Position numbers and translations under genes: made by a program. 64,000 nucleotides of DNA from Phormidesmis priestleyi ULC007 (lineage in GTDB: Bacteria; Cyanobacteriota; Cyanobacteriia; Leptolyngbyales; Leptolyngbyaceae): positions 1 through 64,000 of the forward strand of contig NZ_MPPI01000024.1 of assembly GCF_001895925.1 (NCBI RefSeq). Reading direction: 5' to 3'. Under the pieces are notes generated by a model. It searched no databases and was not told the DNA's origin. It saw nothing but the letters and a program-made list of their open reading frames with translations. Below are positions 14,350 to 62,436 of the stretch, piece after piece (the first letter of the stretch is position 1; the number at the start of each line of letters is the position of its first letter).

Positions 14350-15327
14350 TTAAAGAGCAAGCGGTGCCTTGACGTTTAGTCCGACTTCAAGCAAGTGCCT
14401 CAATAACCGCTGAGTTGCCATTACTAAACCTAGTCTGCTCTGGGAGCGCTCTAGAGAAGAGGGTGACGCTAACTCAAGGATTCGACAAGCTCTATAAAAG
14501 GTTTGAAAGGCGTGACTGAGTGCAAGTGCAGACTTTAGACACGATCGCGGGTTTGTCAACAGATTAGAGAGATTATCGACGATCGTCACCAGTTGAGAAA
14601 TCAATGCCCGTTCTGCTCGATGCGTGAGGCACAACTGCCCCTGAGGCGTTAACCAGGGAATCGGATCAGGCTTAAGAACCATCCAGAAATCGTCTAGAGC
14701 GTCAGTCTCTAAGCGATTTAAAGTCATGACTGGTTCATGGGCAAGACGCAGCAGCGAACAGCAGCGAGCATGGCTATGTTGACAGACAAACAACGGTTCG
14801 CTATCTTCTAAGGCTTGAACAAATGGCTTTTTCAGTGAGGTCAAGAGCGGGATTGAGTCGCTTGAGTTGGCTGGCAATGGCGGCTTCATTAGGCACTGTA
14901 ACCAAACTGACAAGCCACGATCGCCCAACTCAAACTGAAGCAAGCCAGAAGAAAATGCCTTACCCGTAAAATCACTGAGAATACACTGAGCAATCGTTGA
15001 ATCCTCTTGACAAAAATTTACGCTTTCTTGCTGGAACTCACCTAAAATTTGATACGCTAGTTCTAAAGAATTTCTCCGTAACACTGAGGAAAGCTGGAGG
15101 GCGATCGCAGACTGGTAAACAATAGTAAACGTATTATTCTTCACCCTTTTGAGTGGGGTCGATTTCAATAAAAGGCTAACTTTAGAAGAATCAAAATCGT
15201 TTTGATTCGTAACCGCAGATACTTTTTTTACAGTAACATCTGCCTGAGGGTAGATTACTTCACAAAGTTTGACCAGTAACAATGTGCGAAACATTGGATA
15301 AGTAATCTCAGGTAAGTTACAATTCAT
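14350..15327 (-). CDS. Stand-alone DALR anticodon-binding-domain protein
   Basis: 325 aa. The last 100 residues (LSHAFQTFYRACRILELASP, then RSQSRLGLVMATQRLLRHLL) match the DALR anticodon-binding domain that ends arginyl-tRNA synthetase, but no Rossmann core, HIGH or KMSKS motif is present. The N-terminal two thirds resemble nothing I can name. It is therefore an ArgRS-tail-like protein that cannot aminoacylate. Such orphan DALR proteins occur in cyanobacteria; role unknown, tRNA or RNA binding is a guess. It is divergent from a Crp/Fnr-type regulator gene, with an operator-like palindrome between them. Confidence 0.7.
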   Translation of the reverse strand: MNCNLPEITYPMFRTLLLVKLCEVIYPQADVTVKKVSAVTNQNDFDSSKVSLLLKSTPLKRVKNNTFTIVYQSAIALQLSSVLRRNSLELAYQILGEFQQESVNFCQEDSTIAQCILSDFTGKAFSSGLLQFELGDRGLSVWLQCLMKPPLPANSSDSIPLLTSLKKPFVQALEDSEPLFVCQHSHARCCSLLRLAHEPVMTLNRLETDALDDFWMVLKPDPIPWLTPQGQLCLTHRAERALISQLVTIVDNLSNLLTNPRSCLKSALALSHAFQTFYRACRILELASPSSLERSQSRLGLVMATQRLLRHLLEVGLNVKAPLAL

Positions 15328-15414
15328 GGTATTTACGGTTGATGCTCTGAGACGAGATTAGTTTCGACTGAAAATCCTCAAGTTTTACTAGTGGTATTTA
15401 CGGTGAGTAAATAC
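15328..15414. promoter_or_regulatory. Operator-like palindrome and direct repeat between DALR and Crp-like genes
   Basis: The 13-mer TGGTATTTACGGT occurs at 15328-15340, directly against the DALR start codon, and again at 15393-15405. The second copy is part of a perfect inverted repeat GTATTTAC-GGTGA-GTAAATAC (15394-15414). Spacing and symmetry suit a dimeric regulator. The Crp-like neighbour is the obvious candidate, but the motif is not the NtcA consensus GTA-N8-TAC. Confidence 0.5.
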
Positions 15415-15614
15415 AATTACTGAGACTCTGCGAATCGGGAAAATGGGTTTCTGTTTATGGATACATCAGTGAAAATGCCAAGAAGACTATTAAAAGCATA
15501 TAAATTTCTCTTACCCTGTCTCCATCCTGGTTTGCTTGAGGATTGAGTCAATGTTCCGGTTTCGCTGACTGTTCAGCACTTGTCAAAGTCCTCACATTGT
15601 TCTCGACTAAACTT

Positions 15615-16313
15615 ATGTACTCAGTATCTCCCCAACAAAATTCTGAAGCGTCCCGTCCTTTTCTAACCTGGCAACGGATTATCGATTGGGCACAAGAACA
15701 TTATCGGGTGCGCTCTTTCAGCAAAGATGAAAAAATTCCAACCCGTCCAGGGTTGCTTTACCTGGTTCAAAAAGGTGCTGTTCGATTGGTCGGCACTGCC
15801 CAAGTCAATGCAACCAGTGCTACGCGGTTGGCTCGCATCAGTCCAGAGGAAGCCTTCTTGGGCTTTGTGGGCACAGGTCAACCCTTTGAGATTGTGGCAC
15901 AGTCTCCATTTACTTTGCAGAGCTATGCTCACGTCGATCAAACCTCAGTAGTGTGGATGTATTGGCACGATTTAGACAACTGGCCTCACTTCCGCCGCGA
16001 AGTGTTAGATGCATTCCGCTATCAGCACCAGCGTAAACTCCTTTGGTTAAGCACTCTGGGGCAGCGTCGCACGATCGACCGTCTCCTGGGCTTCCTCACC
16101 TTGCTGATCGAAGAGTATGGTGAGCCAACCGATGAAGGCTATTGTTTACCCTTTCCGCTCACCCACGCTCAGATTGGCAGCGCGATCGGGTCTACGCGAG
16201 TTACGGTAACTCGACTGATGGGCAAACTGCGTCAAAAAGGCATGATTCGCACTCAGGGCGATAATTTGCTCTGCTTGCCCACTGACTCGGTTTTAACCAC
16301 TGGGAATGCTTAG
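15615..16313 (+). CDS. Crp/Fnr-family transcriptional regulator
   Basis: About 232 aa. An N-terminal cNMP-binding-like beta barrel (residues about 35-140) lacks the Arg-Glu phosphate cassette of true cAMP receptors, and no Cys cluster for an Fe-S centre is seen. The C-terminal helix-turn-helix reads FPLTHAQIGSAIGSTRVTVT, the same recognition core as NtcA (G-S-T-R-V-T-V-T-R). The rest of the protein differs from NtcA, so it is a paralogue. A TTG start 24 codons upstream is possible; the ATG at MYSVSPQQN is preferred. Divergent from the DALR gene; perhaps autoregulated through the palindrome between them. Confidence 0.85.
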   Translation: MYSVSPQQNSEASRPFLTWQRIIDWAQEHYRVRSFSKDEKIPTRPGLLYLVQKGAVRLVGTAQVNATSATRLARISPEEAFLGFVGTGQPFEIVAQSPFTLQSYAHVDQTSVVWMYWHDLDNWPHFRREVLDAFRYQHQRKLLWLSTLGQRRTIDRLLGFLTLLIEEYGEPTDEGYCLPFPLTHAQIGSAIGSTRVTVTRLMGKLRQKGMIRTQGDNLLCLPTDSVLTTGNA

Positions 16314-44842: not shown

Positions 44843-44875
44843 ATCGTAATAGTTGAGCTACGTTCTCATAATTTT

Positions 44876-44911
44876 AAGAAAGGCGCAGAACGATCGTTCT
44901 GCGCCTTTCTT
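44876..44911. terminator. 36-bp perfect palindrome, bidirectional terminator
   Basis: AAGAAAGGCGCAGAACGA is followed by its exact reverse complement, centred on CGATCG. It lies between convergent genes (hypothetical and psbM). Confidence 0.75.
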
Positions 44912-44941
44912 AAAATGGACATAACCAATTGAAACTTGCTG

Positions 44942-61278: not shown

Positions 61279-62436
61279 TCACTCTTTGATGATCAGATGG
61301 TTTTGAGCGTCTACCACGATCGTTCCTTGCTGCTGAAGTTTGCCTAAAAGACGAGTGACTGTGACTCGCGTTGTGCAGCAAGCACTGGCAAAATCTTGAT
61401 GAGTTAGCCGCACTCTTAGTCGGGTTCCTTGGGCGACGGGTTGCCCGATTTCCTGCTTGAGCAGTGACAGCAACCGATTCAAACGGTCTTGCACCCGAAG
61501 CTGCCCATAAATTGTCAAAAAGCTCTCTGTTTGTCTGAGACGCTGATTCATTGACGGCAGCAGCGCTTGAGCGAGACGAGGTGATTGAGAAACCTCGGTC
61601 AGGGGAATTGACACAAGTTGCACGGTGGCCAGCGCGATCGCTTGATAAGTCTGAAGTGAGGTAAAGCTCGACCCAAACACCATGCCATCGGTGGCCAGCC
61701 CCACCAGCATCTCATCGCCACTGTCAGATAACGTCGTCAGTTTCACCAAGCCTTGCGCCACCAGCCATAAGGCTTGCGTATCTAGCGGAATCACTTCGCC
61801 CTTTGTGTAAGTCTGCATCGGTCGGTCTTGAAAGGGCGTATAGTCACCTTGTTCTAAGGCAGCTTCTGCTCGCTTGCGTTCGGTGATGTCGCGCACGAGC
61901 CAGCGCAAAAGAGGTGCATTTTCGGGGTAGCGAATTACGTCAACGGTGAGCATCGCATCAAACACTTCATTTGAGTGCCGTTGCAGCCGCACATAAGCAT
62001 CTACATGGTCACGCTGTGCAAGCTGAGAGAGTTTGGCTCTAAACAACGGACGATCGTCGATCGCGACTACACTAACTAGAAGTTTGCCGACTAAAAACCG
62101 CTGCTGTCTCGAAAGCAGTGCCACCGCAGCGCGGTTTGCCTCGCGGATGTTGCCCCCCAAGTCGGTGACGAGATAAGCATCAGGCGCAAACTCAAACAAG
62201 TTTTGATAGCGCTGGCGTTCAGCTTCGGTGCGATTGCGGGCGACTAGAAGTTCTTCATTTTGGCGAGTTAGCTCCTCCATTGCAACTTGCAATTCTTCGG
62301 AGGCGACTCCTAATTCTTTGAGAGCAACAGGCAATAATTCGGGTGATGGAATCGGAGTCGCGTTTGCATCGTGACAGAGAATCGACAAACGACCATACAT
62401 CGTCTCAACTTGCTGGCTCAAGAGATTGATGTTCAT
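61279..62436 (-). CDS. PAS-domain Crp/Fnr fusion transcriptional regulator
   Basis: 385 aa from MNINLLSQQVETMYGRLSIL. A coiled coil at 45-78 (EELQVAMEELTRQNEELLVA) leads into one PAS/PAC unit at about 78-190 (NLFEFAPDAYLVTDLGGNIR, RDITERKRAEAALE). Then a cNMP-binding-like barrel (about 200-300) and a Crp-type HTH: TRVTVTRLLGKLQQQGTIVV. The PAS pocket is sensory; the C-terminal half is a DNA-binding regulator. Fusion of a PAS sensor straight onto a Crp/Fnr module is uncommon. A TTG 13 codons upstream is in frame; ATG preferred. Confidence 0.85.
   Translation of the reverse strand: MNINLLSQQVETMYGRLSILCHDANATPIPSPELLPVALKELGVASEELQVAMEELTRQNEELLVARNRTEAERQRYQNLFEFAPDAYLVTDLGGNIREANRAAVALLSRQQRFLVGKLLVSVVAIDDRPLFRAKLSQLAQRDHVDAYVRLQRHSNEVFDAMLTVDVIRYPENAPLLRWLVRDITERKRAEAALEQGDYTPFQDRPMQTYTKGEVIPLDTQALWLVAQGLVKLTTLSDSGDEMLVGLATDGMVFGSSFTSLQTYQAIALATVQLVSIPLTEVSQSPRLAQALLPSMNQRLRQTESFLTIYGQLRVQDRLNRLLSLLKQEIGQPVAQGTRLRVRLTHQDFASACCTTRVTVTRLLGKLQQQGTIVVDAQNHLIIKE

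Follow-up and report, generated by a model that had tools for sequence, protein, structure and literature searches.

A candidate NtcA/DevH-type box overlapping a genome-specific palindrome upstream of a likely devH orthologue in Phormidesmis priestleyi

Expression of the CRP-family gene devH, listed as alr3952, has been linked to NtcA in Anabaena (PMC7699953), where DevH is essential and has a regulon that strongly overlaps that of NtcA (PMC13075795). The LysR-type gene pacR is all3953 (PMC12052932). The main text of a ChIP study of NtcA in Anabaena names neither devH nor alr3952 (PMC3898017), and we found no paper on the devH promoter with NtcA in the limited set of literature searched. A canonical NtcA-activated promoter combines a site centred near -41.5 with a TAN3T -10 box. 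The classical CRP operator has the consensus TGTGA-N6-TCACA. Here, we analyse a window of 64,000 nucleotides from the cyanobacterium Phormidesmis priestleyi ULC007 (contig NZ_MPPI01000024.1, positions 1 to 64,000), in which a sequence-only reading had placed a palindromic operator candidate between a DALR gene and a Crp-like gene. Our analysis corrects this lead, as the pattern of interest is a GTA-N8-TAC box rather than the palindrome (Table 1).

Table 1. Coordinates of the two divergent genes and of the elements between them in the window.
Feature	Position	Strand	Remarks
DALR-domain gene	14350-15327	-	325 aa; transcribed away from the Crp-like gene; Pfam DALR_1, 42.3 bits (cut-off 22.3)
26-bp block TTACAATTCAYNGTANTTACGGTTGA	15317-15342		Spans the DALR start codon; kept in near relatives of the family
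TGGTATTTACGGT, copy 1	15327-15339	+	At the DALR start codon, within the block conserved among near relatives
TGGTATTTACGGT, copy 2	15392-15404	+	Not conserved: 7/13 identical in G008, 6/13 in G001
Perfect palindrome GTATTTAC-GGTGA-GTAAATAC	15394-15414		8+8 bp inverted repeat with 5-nt spacer; genome-specific
Candidate box GTAAATACAATTAC	15407-15420		Perfect GTA-N8-TAC (NtcA/DevH-type); palindrome right arm plus six bases; most likely functional element
Crp-family regulator gene, likely devH (alr3952) orthologue	15615-16313	+	Pfam HTH_Crp_2 and Crp; protein comparison

Both gene labels of that reading were right, as the Pfam domains indicate. The DALR-domain protein scores far under the argS equivalog cut-off (37.1 bits vs 261.65). 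The Crp-like protein lies below the curated cut-offs of the NtcA profile TIGR03697 (54.8 of 244.95 bits) and of the PtrA profile NF053664 (92 of 300 bits), and the genome encodes its own NtcA elsewhere, which reaches 390.4 bits on the NtcA profile. A protein of Nostoc parmelioides (L100), encoded between a DALR gene and a pacR-like LysR gene, is identical to the Crp-like protein at 190 of 228 aligned residues, and the LysR proteins of the two genomes share 265 of 333 residues. Taken together, this identity and the shared neighbourhood indicate that the window gene is likely the orthologue of devH, the comparison having been made through Nostoc parmelioides and not through PCC 7120. The window and Nostoc share the divergent DALR gene and, further out, a HAD-like gene, whereas in the window additional genes, among which we presume ndhD and ndhF, separate the devH orthologue from the LysR gene.

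For comparison, regulator loci were drawn from two collections, one comprising the best 80 of 334 relatives and the other the loci for 30 matches, and they therefore represent a sample of near relatives. In total, 111 loci were analysed with duplicates kept, which arise because several genomes recur under second records; removing duplicates left 90 distinct upstream regions with a length of 300 bp or more. The DALR gene is divergent from the regulator gene in 99 of the 111 loci (duplicates counted), and in five of the 12 loci without this arrangement less than 900 bp of upstream sequence is available. The stand-alone DALR protein keeps this position while diverging fast, with 57% identity within the genus vs 96% for devH.

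The Crp-like protein had been credited with an NtcA-type recognition helix, and this was borne out: this protein, the NtcA of the same genome and solved NtcA chains all have the helix AIGSTRVTVTRL, and the helix stretch HAQIGSAIGSTRVTVTRLMG is invariant in all 111 loci. A further Crp-type domain with an NtcA-like helix (TTRVTVTRLLGKL) lies on the minus strand at 61288-61815, where it closes an open frame of roughly 400 aa; the beginning of this frame looks PAS-like by eye.

The sequence-only reading stated that the palindrome differs from GTA-N8-TAC. This was incomplete, as it overlooked the overlapping candidate box, in which GTA and TAC match exactly and enclose eight bases, as in NtcA-dependent promoters. 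Like those sites, it stands upstream of the likely orthologue of a gene linked to NtcA in Anabaena (PMC7699953). It differs from them in the -10 element: neither strand has a TAN3T at a distance of 17-25 nt, and the box is thus not part of a canonical NtcA-activated promoter. A promoter scan returned one sigma-70-like site, with 0.9 in shuffled sequences. A genome-wide search for a box combined with TAN3T at a distance of 20-24 nt does not recover this site, and its matches (36 forward and 30 reverse) are fewer than those of a backward control pattern (101 and 98), making the pattern unusable as a regulon test.

At the aligned place, G008 carries GTAGTTACAATTAC, in which the consensus is kept, and G001, of the same genus, carries GTGGTTATCATTAC, with a single core change (GTG for GTA). 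The right half of the box, ATTACTGA, is identical in these two genomes and the window genome, whereas the left arm of the palindrome differs, matching at four of eight positions in each relative. Two other genera of the same family (g3 and g6) have no box at this place. G008 retains 12 of 14 box bases vs 60 of 75 just upstream, and G001 retains 9 of 14 vs 18 of 30 downstream. Conservation of the box barely exceeds that of its flanks and gives modest support.

The stronger argument for the box is its recurrence upstream of devH orthologues. Among 42 Nostocales regions, classed by record titles and sequence likeness (L080 by likeness), all 42 have it, between -190 and -165 relative to the reference codon. 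In 40 of them TATAAC follows 19-21 nt after the box, unlike in the window. This TATAAC departs from TAN3T, and a strict TAN3T was found in range of the box in 0 of the 42. The combination resembles the NtcA-activated promoters of PMC3898017, although not letter for letter. Outside Nostocales, the box occurs in 12 of 48 regions, with 4.8 expected by shuffling, and TAN3T lies 17-25 nt downstream in seven of these 12 loci, five of which look related. Among 35 mutually dissimilar 300-bp upstream regions from outside Nostocales, there are eight boxes, counting the window's own site, where control non-coding DNA predicts 2.3 (Poisson p 0.002). The position of the box relative to the gene varies between lineages. 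Its spacing is not cleanly specific, as counts were also raised for N7 (5 vs 1.5) and N10 (4 vs 0.8), but not for N6 and N9. The pattern TAC-N8-GTA is present in 48 of the 90 regions, with two vs 3.8 expected outside Nostocales.

From these observations, we tentatively prefer a control site of the ordinary NtcA/DevH type whose left half carries a palindrome peculiar to this genome. The stretch would be the divergent control region of the devH orthologue, and the predicted box its functional element. We infer that a dimer of a CRP-family protein carrying the NtcA recognition helix may bind the box; this protein could be NtcA, DevH itself or both, and the box may control one or the other of the divergent genes. 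The left arm of the palindrome would be a genome-specific feature adjoining the box, and may have arisen as a copy of the older repeat at the DALR start or by convergence on it.

It is possible, if on balance doubtful, that the whole cluster is neutral and consists of local intergenic repeats, generated by duplication or template switching, together with a chance GTA-N8-TAC. When the region was simulated 3000 times with a first-order Markov model, the repeats looked exceptional: 8-bp arms facing each other across a loop of 3-8 appeared in 2.9% of runs, while a direct repeat of 13 bp and a palindrome accompanied by a third copy of its arm each arose in 0.1%. Actual non-coding sequence from these loci is more repetitive and is the better yardstick. 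Among 143 such segments, which total 46,955 bases or some 165 units of 285 bp, five contained a nearby 13-bp repeat and six a palindrome whose arm recurred a third time, so that similar clusters affect 3-4% of control units. As the non-coding DNA of the window amounts to 5,573 bases (segments of at least 120), or about 20 units, 0.6-0.7 such clusters are expected per window and a single one is unsurprising. Inverted repeats with arms of at least 8 and loops of 3-15 are even sparser upstream of the regulator gene (0.70/kb, 10 in 14.35 kb) than in control non-coding DNA (1.10/kb, 46 in 41.7 kb). Taken alone, the palindrome proves little. The neutral explanation is also consistent with the lack of the palindrome in front of the regulator gene of any relative and with a box hardly better kept than its flanks. 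Against it stand the recurrence of the box in G008, and nearly so in G001, and its enrichment upstream of the regulator gene.

The same yardstick disposed of a recurring dyad of differing sequence beside the box, which some lineages show (L068, L070 and L079). Arms of at least 8 were present in 10 of 41 representatives, where Markov shuffles predicted 3.2, but this excess was gone against real non-coding DNA and the candidate was dropped.

We consider it unlikely that the palindrome is itself a true, recent operator, in which all three GTATTTAC arms, together with the box, would support cooperative binding by DevH or NtcA dimers and the divergent pair would be autoregulated. The perfect palindrome and the further copy at the DALR start are present as the sequence-only reading described them, and its idea of an operator survives in part: a regulatory site is still plausible here because of the overlapping box, but the palindrome fails the conservation test. 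In favour of such an operator, GTATTTAC, searched on both strands, occurs three times within 86 bp here and nowhere else in the window, the direct copies are 65 bp apart (about six helical turns), and the adjacent gene encodes a regulator whose helix equals that of NtcA, the half-sites of which are GTA. Dyad symmetry and an adjoining CRP-family regulator are also features of the classical CRP operator, although its TGTGA-N6-TCACA pattern was found in 0 of the 90 upstream regions. TTACA-N6-TGTAA occurs in four of these regions (L012, L013, L041 and L044), inside their DALR-start block.

The distribution of the palindrome argues against this operator. When as much as 700 bp in front of the regulator was scanned in the 111 loci, only the two loci of the window genome itself matched; the other 109 have at least four mismatches of 16 (L032 with just 28 bp of upstream sequence). 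In G001, whose regulator is 96-97% identical, the best place has six mismatches and corresponds to the DALR start. Conservation in related genomes, a check named with the original proposal, thus turned out negative, the palindrome being absent from this place in relatives. A scan of 42 genomes of the family (own counted) at no more than one mismatch found it in two, the other being G022, where it lies far from devH. By contrast, the repeat copy at the DALR start lies in the 26-bp block, which shows 0-2 mismatches in 12 of the regions listed (own counted), six in G001/L008 and at least nine in the remaining ones. The genome scan that had also been proposed found the palindrome once, with the next-best matches at three mismatches, and the exact 13-mer TGGTATTTACGGT twice, both at this locus; a dispersed repeat or regulon site was therefore rejected. 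Nor was TAC-N5-GTA enriched upstream of the regulator (six loci vs six for the backward control).

A composite DevH/NtcA operator, recently built around the older box with a conserved half-site copied from the DALR start, is quite improbable. If true, it would represent the gain of an autoregulatory site caught in progress, outside the heterocyst formers. Finally, we regard it as very unlikely that the inverted repeat works as a hairpin in the RNA of a leader transcript. In its favour, a 41-nt stretch folded in isolation reaches -9.6 kcal/mol (plus strand) and -6.4 kcal/mol (minus strand), with z of -2.64 and -2.68. Against it, z is -0.06 and -1.39 in two longer folded stretches, no terminator-like site was found, and the palindrome is not conserved.

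Other symmetrical elements were noticed during the analysis. A perfect palindrome of 46 bp at 44871-44916 of the window, single in the genome, lies between convergent open frames and is probably a two-way terminator or hairpin. In genus g6 (L012-L015, L041-L044), a dyad GATCAC-C-GTGATC is located about 180 nt upstream of devH in six of eight aligned loci and is followed by a TATGAT/TATAAT-like element; both of its sides are changed in L015, giving AATCAC-C-GTGATT, and it is broken in L042. The devH leaders of Nostocales (L100 2930-2970 and others) are strongly conserved, and CAAAGAC faces GTCTTTG shortly before the devH start, possibly as an RNA stem.

The preferred reading, an NtcA/DevH-type control site at the likely devH orthologue of P. 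priestleyi, suggests that NtcA-type control of devH, a gene linked to NtcA in Anabaena, may extend to cyanobacteria outside Nostocales.
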